Notes under the pieces: generated by a model
Database searches by the model: none
The model's input: only the letters and a program-made list of their open reading frames with translations
What the model was told of the DNA's origin: nothing
Shown here: positions 245 through 20,784 of the stretch, in pieces
Layout of the letters: every line of letters starts with the position of its first letter
Position numbering within the stretch: position 1 is the stretch's first letter
Translations under genes and position numbers: made by a program
Origin: Methylophilaceae bacterium
GTDB lineage: Bacteria; Pseudomonadota; Gammaproteobacteria; Burkholderiales; Methylophilaceae
DNA: 64,000 bases
Direction: 5' to 3'
Assembly: GCA_027488395.1 (NCBI GenBank)
Contig: JAIYBT010000002.1
Location: forward strand, 62,001-126,000

Positions 245-778
245 ATGTTAAATTTCCAGCATTATTTAGGCGTAGCGCAATCGATTGACGATCGCCTGTG
301 TGTCAAAGTGAGCCATACCAGTCAATATCGTTTGATCAGACATTTTTTTCGAGCCATCTCACGGATGGGCGATGGCATGTTCTGGTATATTTTGATGCTG
401 GTGATTGGGGTTACGCAAGGGTACGCTGGCTGGATGGTGTGTTTGCATATGATCTGTGTTGGGTTAACGGGCACATTGGTCTACAAATGGTTAAAACAAC
501 ACACCAGCCGTCCTCGACCATTTCAAGTCAGGCAAGATGTACTGTTAAGTGGTACGCCTCTCGATTATTTTAGTTTTCCATCAGGTCATACCTTACACGC
601 GGTCGCGTTTGGGGTTGTGGCTGTTCAAGCGTATCCGCAATTATTTCCTGTGGTAATGCCTTTTGTGGTGTTGGTGGGTGTATCGCGTGTTGTGTTAGGC
701 CTGCATTATCCTAGCGATGTGTTAGCGGGTGCGGCGGTTGGTTATGCGCTTGTTTCATTGTATGCACCGATGTTTTAA
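245..778 (+). CDS. PAP2-family membrane phosphatase
   Basis: This is a 177-residue inner-membrane protein of the PAP2 acid phosphatase superfamily, whose members dephosphorylate phosphatidate, undecaprenyl diphosphate or related lipid phosphates. All three signature motifs are visible: K84-x6-R91P92, P112-SGH-115 and S147R-x5-H154-x3-D158. Several hydrophobic segments surround them. An AAGG-like ribosome binding site (GAAAGGCGC) precedes the ATG at 245. The substrate cannot be told from sequence; PgpB- or BcrC-like lipid phosphatase is the family expectation. It appears monocistronic, with the next gene more than 400 bases downstream. Confidence 0.88.
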   Translation: MLNFQHYLGVAQSIDDRLCVKVSHTSQYRLIRHFFRAISRMGDGMFWYILMLVIGVTQGYAGWMVCLHMICVGLTGTLVYKWLKQHTSRPRPFQVRQDVLLSGTPLDYFSFPSGHTLHAVAFGVVAVQAYPQLFPVVMPFVVLVGVSRVVLGLHYPSDVLAGAAVGYALVSLYAPMF

Positions 779-9275: not shown

Positions 9276-10637
9276 TCATGCCCGCTTGTGGCTGCTGAGC
9301 ATCATATGCTGGCGTCGTAGCGGTAGGCTGGCAGCCGATGGGCCACGTTGCCGCAACAAGATTTGATAAATGCCGAGTCGGCCTTGACTAAACGCTTGGG
9401 CACTGGCGGTCATGTAAGCCAGCCACACTCGATAAGTCGCTTCGTTTACGTGTTGCAACGCGGCTTGGTGTTGCTGCATCAGACGTCTGACCCAATGGCG
9501 TAAGGTTAAAGCGTAATGTTCGCGCATGCTTTCTATGTCAATAATCTCAAACTGTGCCAATGCCATGTGTTGTTGAATATTGACGATGGTATCGAGTTGT
9601 CCATCTGGAAACACATAACGGTTAATAAAGGTCTTGCCTAGCGAGTCGCCCCAGCCAGCTTGTTCACTGGTGATGCCATGATTCAGCACCATGCCATCGG
9701 GTGCGAGTAGGCGTTGCATGGTGGCGAAATAGACGGGTAATTGGGCGATGCCCACATGTTCAAACATACCGATACTGGCAATTTTGTCATACTGTGCGTG
9801 ACCCGAAATATCTCGGTAATCTTGTAAAGCAACACTGACATGCGCCTGTAAACCTGCGCTGAGGATATGCGCATTGACGGCATCATATTGGCGTTGGCTG
9901 AGCGTGACACCATGCGCGGTCACGCCGTAATATTGTGCAGCATGCAGAATCAGCGCCCCCCAGCCACAGCCAATGTCTAATAAACGTTCGCCCGGTTTGA
10001 GTTGCAGCTTGCGACAAATTAAATCGAGTTTATCAAATTGGGCCTGCGCTAACGATTGCTGTTCATCTGCAAAGTATGCGCAGGAATACACCATGGCTGG
10101 ATCTAACCATAATCGGTAAAAATCGTTGGAGACATCATAATGAAATTGTACGGCAGCCATGTTTTCTGCTCGACTATGCGTCTCAACCACCTCTGCTTTA
10201 AAAAAATAACTACGGTGCCATTTAGGAACGGTCATGGTCGGTGTGCGCCAAGCCGACCACAGATGCTGTATGGCTAGCAAACGCGCGCGCCAATCCATTC
10301 TTAATTGTTCAAATTGATCACGCATGGCCAACAACGCGCTTAAATCGCCAATCACGTCTATTTCGCCCATGAAGTAGGATTCTGCGAAACAGATCGGATC
10401 GCGACGTTTGATAAAGGCCTGAATCACTGCCGGCGTTTTGAACACTAATCGAAAAGGACTGCCTGCAGCAGGCATGGGTTGTTGACCCAGGGAAACGCAT
10501 TGCCCATCCCAAAATTGCACATGCAAGTGACCGTCAAACGTTGCAAACAATTGCTGCATAAACTGCATGGCGGAGTGGGTATGGGTGTGTATCTGCTGCG
10601 CAATGGTGTGGTGCTGAAACGGTTGTTGCATAAGCAT
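9276..10637 (-). CDS. cfa: Cyclopropane-fatty-acyl-phospholipid synthase family methyltransferase
   Basis: The 453-residue enzyme transfers a methylene group from S-adenosylmethionine to the double bond of unsaturated acyl chains in membrane phospholipids, usually in stationary phase or acid stress. The N-terminal lipid-binding region spans about 30-140. HYDVSNDFYRLWLDPAMVYS marks the start of the catalytic core and LLDIGCGWGALILHAA the SAM-binding motif I. ATGs at 10637 and 10631 both follow AAGGA; the second has better spacing. It is divergent from the Crp/Fnr-type regulator genes, an arrangement that suggests control by them (inference). Some betaproteobacterial homologues are annotated only as SAM-dependent methyltransferases. 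Confidence 0.88.
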   Translation of the reverse strand: MLMQQPFQHHTIAQQIHTHTHSAMQFMQQLFATFDGHLHVQFWDGQCVSLGQQPMPAAGSPFRLVFKTPAVIQAFIKRRDPICFAESYFMGEIDVIGDLSALLAMRDQFEQLRMDWRARLLAIQHLWSAWRTPTMTVPKWHRSYFFKAEVVETHSRAENMAAVQFHYDVSNDFYRLWLDPAMVYSCAYFADEQQSLAQAQFDKLDLICRKLQLKPGERLLDIGCGWGALILHAAQYYGVTAHGVTLSQRQYDAVNAHILSAGLQAHVSVALQDYRDISGHAQYDKIASIGMFEHVGIAQLPVYFATMQRLLAPDGMVLNHGITSEQAGWGDSLGKTFINRYVFPDGQLDTIVNIQQHMALAQFEIIDIESMREHYALTLRHWVRRLMQQHQAALQHVNEATYRVWLAYMTASAQAFSQGRLGIYQILLRQRGPSAASLPLRRQHMMLSSHKRA

Positions 10638-10752: not shown

Positions 10753-10819
10753 GTACGTGATCGAACATAAATGTATGGAATACCGTTTTCAGGGTGCGAT
10801 ATGTACGATATCGAACATA
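10753..10819. repeat. Direct repeat pair in the cfa/crp divergent region, candidate operator
   Basis: GTACGTGATCGAACATA (10753-10769) and GTACGATATCGAACATA (10803-10819) match at 15 of 17 positions and start exactly 50 bases apart, close to five helical turns. Both lie between the start of the cfa-type gene and the likely start (10873) of the Crp/Fnr-type regulator. The phasing suggests two operator copies on the same face of the DNA. Autoregulation by the neighbouring regulator is possible, but the motif is not an obvious Crp or Fnr consensus. Confidence 0.55.
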
Positions 10820-10872
10820 CGCAGACGCTGAGATGCTCTATGATAAACGCTTATTCAGCGCCAAAGACTGTT

Positions 10873-11601
10873 ATGTCACACCCTCACTCTCCACAACAAA
10901 ATCATTTGCTCGATGCTTTACCCGAATCAGATTACACCCGTATTCATGCTTCTTTGGAGTATGTCAGTATGCCTTTAGGCCAAGCCCTGTATGAATCAGG
11001 GGGCCAATTGCAGCACGTGTACTTTCCCACTACAGCCATCATTTCTTTGTTATACGTACTTGAAAATGGCGCCTCCGCAGAAATTGCCGTGGTAGGCAAT
11101 GAAGGCGTGCTAGGCGTTTCATTGTTTATGGGCGGCGAGACCACGCCAAGTCGTGCGGTGGTGCAAAGTGCAGGCTTTGGTTACCGCATGCGCGCTACAT
11201 TATTGAAGCAAGAATTTAATCGTGGCGGACCGATGATGCATTTATTGCTGCGGTATACCCAAGCGTTGATCACACAAATGGCACAAACCGCAGTGTGTAA
11301 TCGTCACCATAGTATTGAGCAACAATTATGTCGCTGGTTGCTGTTGAGTTTAGATCGTCTGGCGGCAGATGACTTAAACATGACACAAGAGTTGATAGCC
11401 AATATGTTGGGGGTAAGACGTGAAGGGGTGACTGAAGCTGCGGGCAAGCTACAACGCGCCGGCTTGATCGAATATTCACGTGGCCATATTCGCGTACTTG
11501 ACCGTCCAAAATTGGAGCTCAGAGTATGTGAATGTTATCAAGTGGTCAAAACTGAGTTTGATCGTTTATTGCCAGATATGCATCGAAATCACGGGCATTA
11601 A
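10873..11601 (+). CDS. Crp/Fnr-family transcriptional regulator, copy 1
   Basis: The product is 242 residues from the ATG at 10873, chosen because homologues begin close to this point (MSHPHSPQQN-HLLDALPE). Earlier in-frame ATGs at 10771 and 10840 would include the direct-repeat operator candidates. The N-terminal cyclic-nucleotide-like beta-barrel (about 20-140) contains GASAEIAVVGNEG and GGETTPSRAVV. The C-terminal HTH_Crp-type winged helix (about 160-225) contains ELIANMLGVRREGVTEAA. No Fnr-type N-terminal cysteine cluster is present, so it is not an oxygen sensor of the Fnr type. The ligand is unknown. It is divergent from the cfa-type gene and followed by a paralogue. Confidence 0.85.
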   Translation: MSHPHSPQQNHLLDALPESDYTRIHASLEYVSMPLGQALYESGGQLQHVYFPTTAIISLLYVLENGASAEIAVVGNEGVLGVSLFMGGETTPSRAVVQSAGFGYRMRATLLKQEFNRGGPMMHLLLRYTQALITQMAQTAVCNRHHSIEQQLCRWLLLSLDRLAADDLNMTQELIANMLGVRREGVTEAAGKLQRAGLIEYSRGHIRVLDRPKLELRVCECYQVVKTEFDRLLPDMHRNHGH

Positions 11602-11689: not shown

Positions 11690-12400
11690 ATGACCCATAC
11701 TGTGCAAGACAATCAATTAATCGCTGCACTTGAACCACACCTTCAACATCAACTGCAGTTGGCAGGCACATGGGTCGAGCTGGTGGTCGGACAATTACTG
11801 AACAATGGCGATCAAGCCCCAGCCGATGTGTACTTCCCTGGGGCTGGAGTGATTGCACTCATGATGCAACAAGCAGACGACAAAGCGATGGCCATTACGC
11901 TGGTCAGTCACGCTGGCATGCTGGGTATTTATCCATTATTAAGTGGCGCAGATGCGCCCTATACTGGGTGGGTAATCATCCCCGGACATGCGTTGCGCAT
12001 CCCCGTGTTGCAACTCAACACGCTACGTGCAAGCTTGCCAACGTTGTCGCAAACACTGGATGCTGCCATTGCAGTCCATGTAGCACAACTGGCACAAGCC
12101 GTGGTATGTCATGGCCTACACAGCATCCAACAACGGTTAGCGAGCCTATTGTTGCAATTGGGCACACAGTTACAACAAGCGCATTTACATCTAACGCATA
12201 CCACGTTAGCCAAGCTATTGGGTGTGAGGCGATCAGGCGTGACCTTAGCGGCCCATGCCCTGCAACAACAGTGCGTGGTGCGCTACAGCCGTGGCGATAT
12301 CACCTTACTTGATATCGCCTCTCTCAATCAAATGGCTTGCCAATGTGCGGCGATGAATCAAGCCTATCAAACATGGTCGACCACACCCCAAGCCAGTTAG
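11690..12400 (+). CDS. Crp/Fnr-family regulator, divergent paralogue
   Basis: A 236-residue protein that aligns by eye with the preceding regulator along its length (VYFPGAGVIALM versus VYFPTTAIISLL; LAKLLGVRRSGVTLAA versus IANMLGVRREGVTEAA; RYSRGDITLLD versus EYSRGHIRVLD). The recognition helix is kept, but the ligand-pocket segment GGETTPSRAVVQ has become SGADAPYTGWVI, losing the Glu and the Arg. It is also unusually Gln-rich (LLQLGTQLQQAHLHL). It probably binds the same or a similar DNA site without the original effector, perhaps as a competitor or heterodimer partner (inference). It follows copy 1 by 88 bases. Confidence 0.8.
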   Translation: MTHTVQDNQLIAALEPHLQHQLQLAGTWVELVVGQLLNNGDQAPADVYFPGAGVIALMMQQADDKAMAITLVSHAGMLGIYPLLSGADAPYTGWVIIPGHALRIPVLQLNTLRASLPTLSQTLDAAIAVHVAQLAQAVVCHGLHSIQQRLASLLLQLGTQLQQAHLHLTHTTLAKLLGVRRSGVTLAAHALQQQCVVRYSRGDITLLDIASLNQMACQCAAMNQAYQTWSTTPQAS

Positions 12401-14580: not shown

Positions 14581-15441
14581 TTAACAATCGGGCTGGATCA
14601 CCCATTGATGGTGGTATTGTTCAAACAAGCGGATGGCACGGGTTGGGCGTAGTCTTGCATCTTGCAAACATTTGCTGCGCCATTGGTCGAGTTGATCCAT
14701 ACCGAGGTGAATTTGTTCTGCATGCAAACTTGGAAACTCGCCTTGTAACAACTTAGGCAGTTCTTGTAAGGCCAAGCTGACCTGTGTTTGATAATAGTGC
14801 AGTTTAGTTTCAAACTCATTATCCATGGCTTTATAGCGGTAGTACAAGCCTTGCGGAATACGTGAAAAACGTAACGCATCATCAGCCAGCGCCAAGCGTT
14901 TCACCGCAGTATTGAGTACATCGGGTGACATATGCAATGTGCTAGACAAGGTCTCCACAATCGCTGTGCGCTGATCGCGCAATAATTGCCCTGGCATCGG
15001 TAAATCACGTTGATACAGGTGTGCATCCATTGCCCATTCTGCAGTGGCATGGGTCAGCACACTGGCATGTCGCCATTTAGCCTCAAAACTGGGGACAAAA
15101 TGCTGGTGCGCGACGACATCGGTCAGCAAATGAATGTTGTAGCCTATGCCAAGTGCTAAGGCCATGTCATCTTCGGTCTGGAGTAATTGTTGACCGATGC
15201 CCCAGCCATGGCTATGCCGAAAGCTACGCGACACCACTGCTAAATCAGGTAAGCAAGCGCCTGTCATTACCCATTGCGGATAACGCTGCATCAGCGTGAT
15301 CAACGGTGCGGGTAACAAGGGCAGCGCTGCTAACAAGCTGTGGGTGTATGCAATGTGGGCGTATAAGCCCCATGCCATGGCATCATTGGGTAAACAAAGC
15401 CAGATACACCAAGCACACAATACACTGAGTCTTTTTTTCAT
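14581..15441 (-). CDS. Secreted zinc-dependent phospholipase C family protein
   Basis: A 286-residue protein of the PF00882 family, which hydrolyses phospholipids to diacylglycerol and a phosphorylated head group. A signal peptide ends AMA-WG, so the mature protein would start with Trp24, as in Bacillus cereus PLC, where the N-terminal Trp binds zinc. Further candidate ligands follow with the right spacing: D66 (GACLPDLAVV), H78, H104 and D108 (YNIHLLTDVVAHQHF), H112/H114, H131 and E135 (HATAEWAMDAHL). It is exported to the periplasm or beyond. It is divergent from a GT4 glycosyltransferase and close to pstSCAB, which suggests phosphate release from phospholipid (inference). Confidence 0.8.
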   Translation of the reverse strand: MKKRLSVLCAWCIWLCLPNDAMAWGLYAHIAYTHSLLAALPLLPAPLITLMQRYPQWVMTGACLPDLAVVSRSFRHSHGWGIGQQLLQTEDDMALALGIGYNIHLLTDVVAHQHFVPSFEAKWRHASVLTHATAEWAMDAHLYQRDLPMPGQLLRDQRTAIVETLSSTLHMSPDVLNTAVKRLALADDALRFSRIPQGLYYRYKAMDNEFETKLHYYQTQVSLALQELPKLLQGEFPSLHAEQIHLGMDQLDQWRSKCLQDARLRPTRAIRLFEQYHHQWVIQPDC

Positions 15442-15495
15442 GCAGGCAATATGCAGGCTGGATGTGACAGCATGGTTAAGTTTCTGTGAATGCCA

Positions 15496-15525
15496 TATGA
15501 CAACAAACCGTCATAAAAGCATCAT
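15496..15525 (+). promoter_or_regulatory. Candidate degenerate Pho box and inverted repeat before the glycosyltransferase
   Basis: CCGTCATAAAAGCATCAT (15508-15525) matches the Pho box pattern CTGTCAT-AWAW-CTGTCAY at about 14 of 18 positions: the first half-site is good, the second weak. It ends 54 bases before the glycosyltransferase ATG, the same distance as the strong Pho box from pstS. It overlaps an inverted repeat TATGAC-N8-GTCATA (15496-15515). PhoB control is an inference. Confidence 0.42.
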
Positions 15526-15579
15526 CTAGCAAGGTTATGCTAACTGGTTGAATAAATTGAACAGTTTGAAAGCCATGCT

Positions 15580-16764
15580 ATGAATATTTTAATGATTTCG
15601 GATGTGTATTTTCCGCGAGTCAATGGCGTCTCCACCAGCATTTGTACGTTTGCAGAGTCGTTAATGGCCCAAGGGCATCGCGTTCACTTAGTGGCGCCAG
15701 CCTATCCCACACAGCCACAATCAGTCGCTTGGATCACCCGCATCGATGCGCGCAAAATTGTGTTTGATCCCGAAGATTATTTAATGAAGTGGTCGGCTCT
15801 CAAGGCATTCATCGATGGATTACAACCATGTGAATATGATGTCGTACATATCCATACGCCATTTATGGCCCACTATGCAGGCTTACGCGTTGGTAAAAAA
15901 TTAAATATCCCTGTAGTTGAGACTTACCATACCTTTTTTGAGGATTATCTTCATCACTATCTGCCTTGGATTCCGCGCCAAATTGCGGTGTCCATCGCAA
16001 GAAAAGTGTCTAAAACTCAATGTCAACAAGTCGATGCGATCGTGTCTCCCTCGGCACAAATGCGTGATGTACTCACCCAATATGGCGTGACTAAGGCTAT
16101 CCATGTGATTCCAACGGGCTTAGATGCTTCACGGTTTGTCATGGGTGACGCCGCTGCATTTCGTGAAAAATATCAAATTCCTGTACAACGGCCGTTGCTA
16201 ATGTACGTAGGGCGGGTGGCATACGAGAAAAATATCCAATTTTTACTCGAAATGTTAACGCTCGTCATTCAAGATCATCCCGAAGTGTTACTCGTGATCA
16301 CTGGTGAAGGGCCTGCCGAGAGCATGTTGAAAAAAATGACCAAGGAGAAAAGCTTGCAATCCAATGTGCTTTTCCTGGGTTATTTAGATCGAGAAGTGGG
16401 CTTAAATGCGGCTTATGCTGCGGCTGATATTTTTGTGTTTGCTTCTAAAAGTGAAACGCAAGGTTTGGTGTTGCTTGAAGCAATGGCGCAAGCCACGCCG
16501 GTGGTTGCAATTGCAGAGTTAGGCACCGCCTCAATTTTAGTACGAGAACGTGGCGCGTTGATTGCCAACGATAACGAACTCCATTTTGCGGAACAAGTAC
16601 AAACCTTGTTGATTGATCACCAATTGCGTCAGCGTGTGGGAGAGGCTGGCAAACTGTATGTGGAACAGGTATGGTCCTCAGAGGCACAAGCACACAAGTT
16701 AAATGATTGTTATCAACAATTGTTTCAACAGGCGCATAAAAGTTTACGCGTACGCACTGCGTAA
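15580..16764 (+). CDS. GT4-family glycosyltransferase, possible diacylglycerol glycosyltransferase
   Basis: A 394-residue retaining glycosyltransferase of GT-B fold. The N-terminal half starts MNILMISDVYFPRVNGVSTS with a Gly-rich acceptor-side motif. HIHTPFMAHYAG and VETYHTFFEDYLHHY are typical of GT4 enzymes that act on diacylglycerol or polyprenyl lipids. The donor-binding half has YVGRVAYEKN and the EX7E motif SETQGLVLLEA at about 290. There is no signal peptide; such enzymes bind the inner membrane face. It lies between a secreted phospholipase C (divergent) and pstSCAB (convergent), so a role in making phosphorus-free glycolipid is attractive but unproven. An 11-bp direct repeat TAAGTCAGGGT begins at the stop codon (16762 and 16776). 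Confidence 0.78.
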   Translation: MNILMISDVYFPRVNGVSTSICTFAESLMAQGHRVHLVAPAYPTQPQSVAWITRIDARKIVFDPEDYLMKWSALKAFIDGLQPCEYDVVHIHTPFMAHYAGLRVGKKLNIPVVETYHTFFEDYLHHYLPWIPRQIAVSIARKVSKTQCQQVDAIVSPSAQMRDVLTQYGVTKAIHVIPTGLDASRFVMGDAAAFREKYQIPVQRPLLMYVGRVAYEKNIQFLLEMLTLVIQDHPEVLLVITGEGPAESMLKKMTKEKSLQSNVLFLGYLDREVGLNAAYAAADIFVFASKSETQGLVLLEAMAQATPVVAIAELGTASILVRERGALIANDNELHFAEQVQTLLIDHQLRQRVGEAGKLYVEQVWSSEAQAHKLNDCYQQLFQQAHKSLRVRTA

Positions 16765-16787
16765 GTCAGGGTTTATAAGTCAGGGTG

Positions 16788-16818
16788 TAAAAAAACCACG
16801 CAATTGCGTGGTTTTTTT
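16788..16818. terminator. Bidirectional intrinsic terminator
   Basis: AAAAACCACGCA (16791-16802) is followed at once by its reverse complement TGCGTGGTTTTT and further Ts, with A runs on the other side. It ends both the glycosyltransferase gene and the convergent pst operon. Confidence 0.88.
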
Positions 16819-16847
16819 ATTAAAGCTGGCTGGCTTCACTCAAGCAA

Positions 16848-17627
16848 TTAACCAAATTTGCCAGTGATGTAATCTTCAGTTTCTTTGCGTTTTGGATTGG
16901 TAAAAATGATGTCGGTATCATCATATTCAATCAACTCACCTAAATACATATAGGCGGTGTAATCAGACACCCGTGCTGCTTGTTGCATATTATGGGTGAC
17001 CACCAATATCGTCAGCTTACTTCTCAGTTCAACCATCAGTTCTTCAATGTTGGCGGTGGCAATCGGATCTAATGCAGAGGTAGGTTCATCGAACAACATA
17101 ATTTCTGGATCAGTCGCTAATGCACGTGCAATGCATAAACGTTGTTGCTGACCGCCAGATAAGTTAAACGCTAAATCGTGCAAGCGGTCTTTGACCTCGT
17201 TCCAGAGCGCAGCGCCTTTGAGTGCTTCTTCCACTTTATCGTCCATGATGCGTTTGTTATTTTCACCACGGACGCGTAAGCCGTAAGCGACGTTTTCATA
17301 AATTGATTTAGGAAAAGGATTTGGTTTTTGAAACACCATGCTAATGCGCATGCGAACTTCAATCGGATCTACTGCAGCGTCCAACACATTGGTATTGTCT
17401 GGAAACATCACAATTTCGCCTTGGTATTGATTACCAGGGTAGAGATCATGCATGCGGTTAAAGCAGCGTAGAAACGTTGATTTGCCACAGCCAGATGGGC
17501 CAATTAAAGCGGTGATTTTGTTTTCATACAAAGGCATCGAAATGCCTTTCAGTGCACGCGCGCCATTGCTGTAAAAAAAGTTAAGATCGCGTGCTTCTGC
17601 TTTCACTGCGGTGTTCGTGTTCGCCAT
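16848..17627 (-). CDS. pstB: Phosphate ABC transporter ATP-binding protein
   Basis: The product is 259 residues from the ATG at 17627, which follows AGGAAATACT; the longer frame to 17705 overlaps pstA and is not needed. It powers high-affinity phosphate import. Walker A is GPSGCGKST, the signature is LSGGQQQR, Walker B is IMLFDEP, and the H-loop is [14 protein letters not shown]. PstB-specific features include [10 protein letters not shown] and [12 protein letters not shown]. It is the last gene of the pst operon here; no phoU follows, and the next genes are convergent. Confidence 0.96.
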
Positions 17628-17652
17628 AGTATTTCCTATTGTTGTGTTGGCA

Positions 17653-18591
17653 TTACCATTTAATGTTTTTACGGATTTTGTAACGTAACCAAATTGCGGT
17701 GCCATTCATCAGTAGGGTGACCACAATAATCAATGCACCTGTTGCCGCTGCATTGATGTGAAATGCATGGTCTGGGCGCGATAACCAGTTAAACATTTGA
17801 ATCGGCATCACTGTAAATCCAGAAGATAACCATTCAAAGTTAAAAAAGGGCGGCTCAGTAGTGATTGGGCTAGGCGGTAAAAAGGCAATAAATGTTAAGG
17901 CGCCAATGGTAATGATGGGTGCTGTCTCGCCTAATGCGCGTGCCATGCCAATAATGACGCCCGTTAAAATACCACCGTAGGAATATTTAAATACGTGGTC
18001 GTACACCACTTGCCATTTTGTAGCACCTACACCGTAAGCGGCTTCACGGATTGCCGTTGGAATCGCACGGATCGCCTCACGGGTAGACACAATCACAATC
18101 GGTAAAATTAATAAACCTAACGTCAAACCCGCCGTCAGTATGCTTTGGCCTAAATCTAAAATGTAGACAAATAAGCCCAGCGCCAATAAACCATAAATGA
18201 TCGAAGGTACGCCTGCTAAATTAGATACATTGATTTCGATCAGATCAGTAAACCAATTTTTGGGCGCATATTCTTCTAAATACAACCCTGCAGCGACGCC
18301 CACGGGCACTGCAGTAATGAACGTGACGCTCATCACTAATAACGAACCCACCCAAGCTGACAACAAACCTGCGTGCGCGGCACGACGCGATGGAAACTCA
18401 GATAAAAATTCAAGGTTAAATTTTGGATAACCGTCGGCAATTAATTGCCAAAATAACAGCATCAGGGTGATTAGCCCTAACATCAGCGCCAACAACCCAA
18501 CCACCGCAAATAGCGCATCGTTGCGTTTGTGGCGTTTAATCATGGCGCGCACTTCGGCTAAGTTTTGTATGACGGAGGCTTTATGTTCCAT
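17653..18591 (-). CDS. pstA: Phosphate ABC transporter permease PstA
   Basis: The 312-residue inner-membrane permease has about six transmembrane helices. The cytoplasmic coupling loop [19 protein letters not shown] corresponds to the EAA motif of binding-protein-dependent permeases. An N-terminal hydrophilic stretch of about 25 residues precedes the first helix. It pairs with PstC to form the channel. Its stop lies 25 bases before the pstB start. The ribosome binding site is weak (GAGA), suggesting partial translational coupling with upstream genes, though an 87-base gap to pstC exists. Confidence 0.95.
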
Positions 18592-18678
18592 GGCGTATAT
18601 CTCGTGATGCCAATTGAGTAGGCAATAGTTTAATCAGTAATCGTGTCAGCAATAAGTCAGCGCTTGAAGACATTATTT

Positions 18679-19620
18679 TTAATAATGCTCGCGATATTTT
18701 TTGCGAATCCAGTGGCCAATAATATTAAACGCCAACGTCATCATCATCAGCACTAAACCAGCCGCAAAAATACTTTGATAACCAATACTGCCATGTGGCA
18801 AATCACCCATCGCCACTTGCACAATAAATGCGGTGATGGTGGCTGCACTTTCTAACGGATTAAAACTCAGATTCGGTTGTTGACCAGCGGCAATCGCAAC
18901 CACCATGGTTTCACCCACCGCACGGGATATGGCTAAAATATATGCGGCCACAATGCCAGAGACCGCTGCAGGCGTTACCACTTTAATGGCAGTTTGAAAC
19001 CGGGTTGCGCCCATCGCGTAAGAACCCTCGCGCATACTCATTGGCACGGCTCGCATTGCATCTTCAGACAATGAAGCGATGTAAGGAATGATCATGATGC
19101 CCATGACAATACCGGCACTTAACATATTAAAACTGGGGAGGTCAGGGTAAATAGACTGCAAAATTGGGGTGACGAAAAACAATGCAAAATAACCAAATAC
19201 TACGGTAGGAACACCAACCAACAACTCTAAAATCGGTTTAATGGTTTCACGCGTGTTATGGCTTGCAAACTCCGACAGGAAAATCGCAGCCACCGTGCCA
19301 ATCGGCACAGCTACGGCCAGCGCAATCGCAGAGGTGGTTAATGTGCCTGAAACTAACGGTAAGATGCCGTAATGGGCGTCTTCGAACAGTGGTGTCCATT
19401 CGGTATCGGTAAAAAACTCAACGATGGAGACGTTCTTAAAAAACCCAATCGATTCATACAGCAACACACCGACAATGGCAAAAGTGGTGGCTACCGCAGT
19501 CAATGCAGCTAACATTAAAATGAGTTCAATCACCCGTTCTTTGACATTTCTACGGATGTTTTTGGCTAGCCGTGGGCTAATAGTCAGTTGTGCAGGAACT
19601 TGCATTGCGTGCGTCGCCAT
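18679..19620 (-). CDS. pstC: Phosphate ABC transporter permease PstC
   Basis: A 313-residue permease subunit with about six transmembrane helices and the coupling loop EGSYAMGATRFQTAIKVV, which contacts PstB. The hydrophilic N-terminus (about 1-30) is Arg/Lys-rich, consistent with the positive-inside rule. It lies between pstS and pstA. A strong terminator separates it from pstS, so most transcripts probably end after pstS and a fraction reads into pstCAB, matching the excess of binding protein over membrane subunits in such systems. Confidence 0.95.
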   Translation of the reverse strand: MATHAMQVPAQLTISPRLAKNIRRNVKERVIELILMLAALTAVATTFAIVGVLLYESIGFFKNVSIVEFFTDTEWTPLFEDAHYGILPLVSGTLTTSAIALAVAVPIGTVAAIFLSEFASHNTRETIKPILELLVGVPTVVFGYFALFFVTPILQSIYPDLPSFNMLSAGIVMGIMIIPYIASLSEDAMRAVPMSMREGSYAMGATRFQTAIKVVTPAAVSGIVAAYILAISRAVGETMVVAIAAGQQPNLSFNPLESAATITAFIVQVAMGDLPHGSIGYQSIFAAGLVLMMMTLAFNIIGHWIRKKYREHY

Positions 19621-19685
19621 AGTGTGAGTTCTGTGAGGGTTGAAATTTTAGCGGATTTATCAGGTTGTACGCATAAAACTTTTAC

Positions 19686-19714
19686 AAAAAAAGGGGCTGA
19701 GTGCTCAGCCCCTT
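19686..19714 (-). terminator. Intrinsic terminator/attenuator between pstS and pstC
   Basis: Stem AAGGGGCTGA (19691-19700), loop GTGC, TCAGCCCCTT (19705-19714), with seven Ts on the minus strand immediately after. It lies 8 bases after the pstS stop inside the operon and probably sets the pstS to pstCAB ratio. Confidence 0.88.
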
Positions 19715-19722
19715 GCCATTAA

Positions 19723-20712
19723 TTATTTAATCCTTGACAGCAAGTCTGTAATTTTAACACCCACTTCAGAGGTGCCATTAAAGCCAGTGCCAGGTTTCAT
19801 TGCTTTGAAATGTGTTTTAACTGCTTCGTAATCTTCCTTCGGTAAAGGAACATATTTCACTTCTTTGACTAATTCTGGCGCATTTTCCAAATAGAAATTT
19901 ACAAAGGCTTTAACTTCTGGCTTAAACGCAGCCGCAGTAGCGTTTACGTAGATAAATAATGGGCGGGATAATGGTTGATAGGTGCCGTCCATTACAGTCT
20001 CAGGAGCCGGAAAAATGGCCTTGCCACCTTCTTTAGCAACAACAGGTACTGCTCTGAGTTTGTCTTTGTTTTCTAGGTAGTACGCCAATCCAAAATAAGC
20101 CAACCCACCCAAGTTACCAGCAACGCCTTGTACTAATACATTGTCATCTTCTGACGGCGTGAAGTCTTTACGGCTGGCTTTGGCTTTGCCGTTAATGGCT
20201 TCAGTAAAATAATCAAAGGTACCTGATGATGTACCTGGGCCATATAAATTCAGCGCTTTATCAGGAAAGGTAGCATTGACTTGTTTCCAGTTTTTAACGG
20301 TTGAGTTTGGTTCCCAGATTTTTTTCAACTCTGCCACTGATAATTGTTTTACCCAATCGTTTTTACCGTTTACCACTACGGTTAACGCATCATAGGCCAC
20401 GGGCAACTCAATAAATTGAACACCACCTTCTTTGCAAGCATCCATTTCTTTTTGTGAAATGGGGCGCGATGCATCTGAAATGTCAGTTTCACCACGGCAA
20501 AACTTTTTAAAACCACCCCCAGTACCTGATTCGCCCACAGTCACTTTGACGCCTTTAGCACGCTGAAACTCTTCTGCTACGGCTTCTGTAATCGGGTACA
20601 CCGTACTCGAACCATCAATCTTGATGATTTTTTCGGCAGCCGTTGCAGAAAAGCTAAAAGCTTGCGCAATGAGGGCAGCAACAAGTGAGGAACGTAACAG
20701 CGAACTGTGCAT
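19723..20712 (-). CDS. pstS: Periplasmic phosphate-binding protein
   Basis: A 329-residue protein with a cleavable signal peptide ([16 protein letters not shown]). The mature part starts [18 protein letters not shown], the phosphate-binding loop of PstS, followed by [20 protein letters not shown], which also contacts phosphate. There is no lipobox, so it is soluble in the periplasm. It delivers phosphate to PstC/PstA. It heads the operon and has a Pho box 54 bases upstream, so it should be induced by phosphate starvation through PhoB. Confidence 0.95.
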
Positions 20713-20766
20713 GGAGACTCCTAAAAGAGGGGTTGTGTTGTAGTGAATGAATCATAGAAAGATAAT

Positions 20767-20784
20767 ATGACAGAAATGTGACAA
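20767..20784 (-). promoter_or_regulatory. Pho box (PhoB operator) upstream of pstS
   Basis: On the minus strand the site reads TTGTCACATTTCTGTCAT: two direct 7-base half-sites (TTGTCAC and CTGTCAT) 11 bases apart with an AT-rich 4-base spacer, matching the consensus CTGTCAT-AWAW-CTGTCAY closely. It ends 54 bases before the pstS start. Confidence 0.85.

Follow-up and report, generated by a model that had tools for sequence, protein, structure and literature searches.

The stretch of DNA analysed here, referred to as the window, is 64 kb of a contig from a methanol-using bacterium of the Methylophilaceae whose genome (2.45 Mb in 27 contigs) is rated 92% complete. Next to pstSCAB it carries two divergent genes, one for a zinc phospholipase C of the PF00882 family with an export signal and one for a GT4 glycosyltransferase. 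We consider it likely that these are the first two enzymes of a lipid remodelling pathway for phosphate starvation, with the exported PF00882 enzyme in place of the unrelated cytoplasmic phospholipase PlcP. Our confidence stems mainly from the mutual exclusion of the two phospholipase types and their repeated exchange. With more reserve, we favour the wider proposal that PlcP has been exchanged many times in the order with this non-homologous exported zinc enzyme, so that head groups would be removed in the periplasm instead of the cytoplasm.

Remodelling by PlcP and a glycosyltransferase is established in Phaeobacter (PMC4796936), Pseudomonas (PMC8528852) and Methylosinus (PMC9239053), and the glycosyltransferase of SAR11 has been characterised (PMC8231724). 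The PlcP-Agt systems of Sinorhizobium, Phaeobacter, SAR11, Pseudomonas and Methylosinus likewise combine a phospholipase C with a GT4 enzyme, often encoded by linked genes. They are induced by low phosphate and yield first diacylglycerol and then a glycolipid that replaces phospholipid. Unlike PlcP, the phospholipase of the window belongs to the helical zinc enzymes of PF00882, another superfamily, and bears an export signal. The glycosyltransferase has 394 amino acids rather than the 334 of GTcp, and the two genes are divergent instead of forming an operon. No proposal tying PF00882 to lipid remodelling was found within the searched literature, which was accessible in part; judging by the evidence laid out below, what would be new is the same job being done by a different enzyme on the other side of the membrane.

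The distribution of the two phospholipase types was surveyed in 150 genomes of the Methylophilaceae (the family) and 200 of the Burkholderiales (the order), 6 of the latter coming from the family. In the family, where PlcP was counted only above 100 bits, 95 genomes hold PF00882 only, 23 PlcP only, 1 both and 31 neither. One of the two types accompanies the glycosyltransferase in 118 of 122 family genomes, and a single genome among the 28 lacking the glycosyltransferase has one (PF00882); where the glycosyltransferase occurs without PF00882, a PlcP-type gene is present in 23 of 27 cases. Across the order, PF00882 is found in 35 genomes, PlcP in 92, both in none and neither in 73. Among the 59 order genomes with the glycosyltransferase, the corresponding figures are 30, 26, 0 and 3, leaving aside G312 (which has PlcP) and G159 (which has neither), whose glycosyltransferases show 33-35% identity. 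Three genomes of one family (G266, G180 and G224 of f32) have the glycosyltransferase with neither phospholipase type, and may possess a third source of diacylglycerol.

The replacement can also be followed locus by locus. In eleven family loci that lack the phospholipase, the island contains a calcineurin-like gene instead, whose product is about 250 residues long in most cases. Two of the encoded proteins were run against Pfam, both giving PF00149, and three were tested and fell below the LpxH cut-offs; by domain and by these cut-offs, we regard the group as probably PlcP in kind. Within one genus, the slot between the PAP2 and diacylglycerol kinase genes and adjoining the glycosyltransferase is taken by the phospholipase in one locus (L071) and by a PlcP-type gene in two others (L091 and L092). 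The window's own genome yields only one partial match of 30% identity (E 5.5e-8) to a PlcP-type query, which we read as a putative LpxH-like protein.

To what extent could this pattern reflect ancestry or habitat alone, with lineages that happen to hold either gene without a common function? In a maximum-likelihood tree of 72 glycosyltransferases (from the fetched loci, out of 175 genomes with such a gene) and two outgroup rows, the phospholipase label changes 11 times as against 22.2 in shuffles. The labels therefore cluster, as ancestry would have it, and because they do, the genome counts overstate the evidence; moreover, the genes are mostly unlinked outside the family. However, at least seven of the 11 changes lie on well-supported branches, a single PF00882 clade is rejected (p-AU 1.7e-59 in the approximately unbiased test), the two genes coincide in none of the 59 order genomes with the glycosyltransferase, and a PlcP-type gene occupies the very same slot within one genus. 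Ancestry alone is thus a decidedly unlikely explanation. The tree records changes of label without the direction of each, and their recurrence implies that genomes with the same glycosyltransferase have swapped the phospholipase repeatedly. The proposal of the earlier sequence-only reading, that a PF00882 enzyme replaces PlcP in a variant pair, gains substantially from this and from the near-complete exclusion.

The phospholipase itself matches PF00882 at 48.7 bits (gathering cut-off 26.8) and no other Pfam family, the calcineurin-like metallophosphoesterase domain of PlcP included, and it is the single PF00882 match in the whole genome at the stated completeness. Trp24, His29, Asp66, His78, His104, Asp108, His114, His131 and Glu135 are invariant in all 41 sequences compared, the window's among them; we take these nine positions to be the zinc ligands of PC-PLC. 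Trp24 directly follows A-M-A, so that it would become the mature N-terminus, and the cleavage-site residues are also conserved (A23 in 41 of 41 sequences, A21 in 38 of 41). A mature N-terminal tryptophan and the spacing of the zinc ligands were what had first been read from the sequence, and both hold throughout this set. The same fold, ligand positions and mature N-terminal Trp are found in the Bacillus cereus PC-PLC, the Listeria PLC and the N-domain of clostridial alpha-toxin (PF00882). The window enzyme differs from these Gram-positive proteins in its Gram-negative host and its phosphate-starvation locus with lipid-synthesis neighbours. Its closest named relatives are Methylophilus records with 62-70% identity, among them the PF00882 protein of Methylophilus methylotrophus (70% over residues 18-286), which makes the organism a Methylophilus or something close to it. 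A sequence search of the PDB returned chance matches only (best E 1.2), and Foldseek with a model of the protein gave no match at E <=0.001; alignment of the Foldseek candidates with VIA-align 2 places the model in the PC-PLC family, whose fold it shares. We regard the protein as an exported zinc phospholipase C by prediction.

The superfamily also contains enzymes with other substrates, and the PF00882 protein could in principle be an S1/P1-type nuclease or another phosphodiesterase releasing phosphate from nucleic acids. Pfam, as stated, yields no family other than PF00882, and phospholipases rank above nucleases in the list of structures compared with the model. The last ligand position, in H131-x3-E135, is a glutamate, which we take to be the PC-PLC pattern, rather than the aspartate that is presumably typical of P1. 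Nor would a nuclease be expected to alternate with PlcP. On the Pfam, structural and Glu135 evidence a nuclease identity was set aside, and this whole class of explanation is highly improbable.

The glycosyltransferase was said in the sequence-only reading to be of the GT4 kind that acts on diacylglycerol. Its best NCBIfam model is indeed of that kind, namely alpha-monoglucosyldiacylglycerol synthase (MGlcDAGSynMgs, NF049988), but the score of 151 bits is far below the cut-off of 400; the claim thus stands as fair but weak, and identity with the curated synthase itself was rejected. The protein is 27-30% identical to three of the short Agt-like proteins that accompany PlcP in other families of the order, and does not appear to be closely related to that type. 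In 13 genomes of the order from outside the family, PlcP does have a relative of the window's glycosyltransferase (44-51% identity) as its neighbour. A second GT4 protein, 25-29% identical to the first, occurs near PAP2 and DgkA in PF00882 islands (L202, L204, L208, L220 and others) and adjoins PlcP in other loci; the one member run had N-acetylglucosaminyl phosphatidylglycerol synthase as its best NCBIfam match, below the cut-off.

The arrangement of the locus agrees with the earlier description, with the phospholipase divergent from the GT4 gene beside pstSCAB: 138 bases separate the two genes, the glycosyltransferase converges on pstB-pstA-pstC-pstS, and the Pst proteins all exceed their NCBIfam cut-offs. 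Conservation of this order in relatives was a test named beforehand. The phospholipase is present in 96 of the 150 family genomes and in 18 of 24 genera, and in 91 of the 95 genomes that hold both genes the pair is divergent within 3 kb (61 within 400 bases, 30 more within 3 kb); three pairs are farther apart and one is not divergent. Of the divergent pairs, 59 share their contig with a strong pstS match, and in 56 of these the distance from pstS to the glycosyltransferase is no more than 8 kb. These counts cover glycosyltransferases of at least 46% identity and strong pstS matches. Left out of them are paralogues of the glycosyltransferase at 25-31% identity, one additional fragment (G145) and pstS rows that were short or weak, so that genomes bearing the other type of pst, as in L067, L071, L091 and L100, are scored as lacking pstS. 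Within the family, then, the phospholipase C is linked to the glycosyltransferase as in the PlcP-Agt pathway.

Genes for the use of diacylglycerol recur among the neighbours. PAP2 accompanies the phospholipase in 17 of 21 family loci, DgkA in 13 (as a rule between phospholipase and glycosyltransferase) and an OlsB relative in 1, while the 11 family PlcP loci have PAP2 in 9, DgkA in 6 and OlsB and OlsA relatives in 7 each. Outside the family, 20 of the 30 phospholipase loci (L201-L220) were inspected, showing PAP2 and the second GT4 in 15 each, DgkA in 10, and OlsB and OlsA in 7 each. Twenty outside PlcP loci, 12 of which (L181-L192) had been picked for a nearby glycosyltransferase, contain the second GT4 or a relative in 14, DgkA in 4, OlsB and OlsA in 2 each and PAP2 in 1. 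The PAP2 assignment comes from one member of cluster c1 run against Pfam, and one OlsB and one OlsA relative had ornithine-lipid models as their best matches, below cut-off. In the window the PAP2 gene is about 14 kb from the phospholipase, which it neighbours in many relatives. Two further clusters, c22 and c27, had been taken for PhoR and PhoB and proved to be a PHO4-type phosphate transporter and a PhoU-like protein.

Secreted PC-PLC relatives of Gram-positive bacteria attack foreign membranes. The phospholipase could, by analogy, be a scavenger of outside phospholipids from dead cells or vesicles, serving phosphate supply and unrelated to the cell's own lipids or to the glycosyltransferase. 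Its export signal, the Pho-type sites and pst alongside would all suit such a role. From a scavenger, however, one would not expect that it excludes the cytoplasmic PlcP, that it accompanies the glycosyltransferase almost without exception in the family, or that genes using diacylglycerol recur nearby, and we judge this role unlikely.

For the control by phosphate that remodelling would require, a two-unit matrix was derived from pstS boxes of the family, 12 distinct ones with that of the window among them (2 of 15 pstS regions had no usable box). The clear Pho box reported 54 bases before the ATG of pstS, TTGTCACATTTCTGTCAT, is the top-scoring site of the window, being itself among the matrix sources. 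A degenerate box, CCGTCATAAAAGCATCAT, had been noted exactly 54 bases before the glycosyltransferase. Its position holds, and it is conserved: 17 of its bases fall within the 18 consecutive intergenic bases that vary least among 16 rows (mean column identity 0.92). By the matrix, however, it is weak (8.4). When the intergenic regions were aligned (17 rows, of which 16 are distinct because one duplicates the window), four half-sites pointing to the phospholipase gene came to light, TTGTCAT, CATTCAC, ACTTAAC and CTGTCAC. None of 300 shuffles reaches the score of this array, in the window and in each of the 16 distinct sequences, and it appears to be the better candidate PhoB site. Pho-type sites (p <=0.02) occur upstream of the phospholipase gene in 14 of 20 regions, of the glycosyltransferase gene in 20 of 32 and of the PlcP gene in 6 of 8, as against 16 of 161 controls; the first two counts overlap because divergent pairs share one region. 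Upstream regions shorter than 40 bases were dropped (keeping 32 of 37 for the glycosyltransferase, 20 of 21 for the phospholipase and 8 of 11 for PlcP), and the controls exclude neighbours of lipid and pst genes, duplicates and any gene found at a single locus.

The genome encodes PhoB (353 bits, cut-off 296), and the Pho-type box at the PAP2 gene of the window scores 12.9. Elsewhere in the genome, L241 (contig C9, 1489-2996) holds a DgkA gene beside an open reading frame that looks PhoU-like by eye, with a Pho-type site scoring 14.6 about 50 bases upstream. In L244 (contig C17, 354-1944), an OlsB-type gene (PF13444) followed by an OlsA-like open reading frame (by eye) has overlapping strong Pho sites, scoring 20.6 and 16.2, at about the same distance. 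Ornithine-lipid synthesis may thus also be phosphate-controlled here. With PhoB present and DgkA and an OlsB-type gene behind Pho sites, it is therefore likely that phosphorus-free lipid synthesis is under Pho control in this organism.

How might the pathway operate? When phosphate is low, PhoB would bind its boxes in front of the phospholipase and glycosyltransferase genes as well as pstS. The phospholipase would be exported and freed at Trp24 by signal peptidase, and the zinc enzyme, acting from the periplasm, would then strip phosphatidylethanolamine and phosphatidylglycerol of their head groups. The freed phosphate, after a phosphatase, could be taken back via Pst, while diacylglycerol would cross to the inner leaflet to receive a sugar from a UDP-sugar through the GT4 enzyme, any excess being salvaged by DgkA. 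With head groups removed in the periplasm, phosphate would be harvested there by phosphatases and taken up through Pst, and the periplasmic leaflets of both membranes could come within reach of remodelling. That an exported phospholipase and a cytoplasmic glycosyltransferase pose a problem of topology had been recognised from the start. The problem is present, but only mild, since diacylglycerol flips fast without catalysis and since the kinase DgkA, of which a type is found in 13 of the 21 family loci, deals with a comparable flow in E. coli. There, DgkA salvages at the inner membrane the diacylglycerol left by synthesis of the periplasmic oligosaccharide MDO (PMC8027125). The two cases differ in that the E. 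coli by-product returns to phosphatidate, whereas here diacylglycerol would become membrane glycolipid.

Several observations weigh against the proposed role of the pair. At the level of the proteins and their control, the glycosyltransferase passes no curated diacylglycerol-synthase cut-off in NCBIfam. The scan of 15442-15579 with the two-unit matrix, foreseen in the sequence-only reading, gives only a weak site (9.3, p 0.034) and no strong one. The four-unit array was spotted before being tested, and it ends 22 bases before the annotated phospholipase ATG, leaving room for a very short leader only. The controls, at 16 of 161, score above the nominal rate for p 0.02. As to distribution, the genomes are related, so that counts are non-independent. 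Neither phospholipase type is present in 4 of 122 family and 3 of 59 order genomes with the glycosyltransferase, which is itself missing from 5 of the 35 PF00882-bearing and 66 of the 92 PlcP-bearing genomes of the order. One family genome, G027, has both PF00882 and a PlcP-type gene; the latter has 46% identity and is on a different contig from the PF00882 gene. In addition, one study assigns plcP transcripts to Methylotenera, by name a genus of the Methylophilaceae (PMC9239053). Linkage, too, is uneven. Outside the family the phospholipase is near the glycosyltransferase in just 4 of 25 genomes, compared with 13 of 25 for PlcP, and in PlcP-bearing family genomes a same-contig pstS is 10.7 to 44.7 kb away, once 338 kb. 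Of the inspected outside loci, those of the phospholipase include the glycosyltransferase in 4 and a pst gene in 1, and those of PlcP have the glycosyltransferase in 12 (those selected for it) and a pst gene in 4. Twenty outside loci at an unlinked glycosyltransferase have pst in 1, OlsB in 2, and DgkA, PAP2 and the second GT4 in 1. Tight pairing and the pst link are therefore mainly a family trait, while the exclusion holds across the order, and the partner genes common to the two phospholipase types are unevenly distributed.

PlcP serves as a marker of lipid remodelling in genome and metatranscriptome surveys, and one paper puts plcP transcription forward as a biomarker for phosphate-limited methanotrophs (PMC9239053). 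Because all but one of the PF00882 genomes are without a PlcP-type gene, a PlcP-based survey would miss them. If the proposed role is correct, lipid remodelling could extend to 18 of the 24 genera in this family of methylotrophs, and to another 25 genomes of the order that have the glycosyltransferase. The locus would also offer a clean test of whether diacylglycerol produced on the periplasmic side is able to supply the bulk synthesis of glycolipid within the cell.

Table 1. Features of the phospholipase-glycosyltransferase locus and related features of the window.
Feature	Position	Strand	Remarks
PF00882 zinc phospholipase C (predicted), 286 aa	14581..15441	-	Signal peptide with cleavage site A-M-A/W
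Four candidate PhoB half-sites	15464..15503	-	11-base spacing; pointing to phospholipase gene
Degenerate Pho-type box	15508..15525	+	54 bases ahead of glycosyltransferase ATG
GT4 glycosyltransferase, 394 aa, probable diacylglycerol glycosyltransferase	15580..16764	+	PF00534 and PF13439 matches
Inverted repeat between A and T runs	16796..16811	unstranded	Read directly from the letters
pstB	16848..17705	-	TIGR00972, 378 bits (cut-off 343); match starts at residue 37
pstA	17653..18591	-	TIGR00974, 263.5 bits (cut-off 193)
pstC	18679..19620	-	TIGR02138, 274 bits (cut-off 196)
pstS	19723..20712	-	TIGR02136, 316.6 bits (cut-off 206.6)
Pho box of pstS	20767..20784	-	Matrix score 23.3
PAP2-family phosphatase	245..778	+	39-63% identity to cluster c1 members; Pho-type box 149-166

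Some minor features complete the picture of the window. The inverted repeat of Table 1 probably terminates transcription in both directions, as the glycosyltransferase and pstB genes converge on it. Because the annotated pstB frame overlaps pstA, its true start is probably near 17627. Positions 9276-10637 encode a methyltransferase of the cyclopropane fatty acid synthase type (PF02353), and the adjoining open reading frames at 10771-11601 and 11690-12400 have, by eye, the look of Crp-family regulators.

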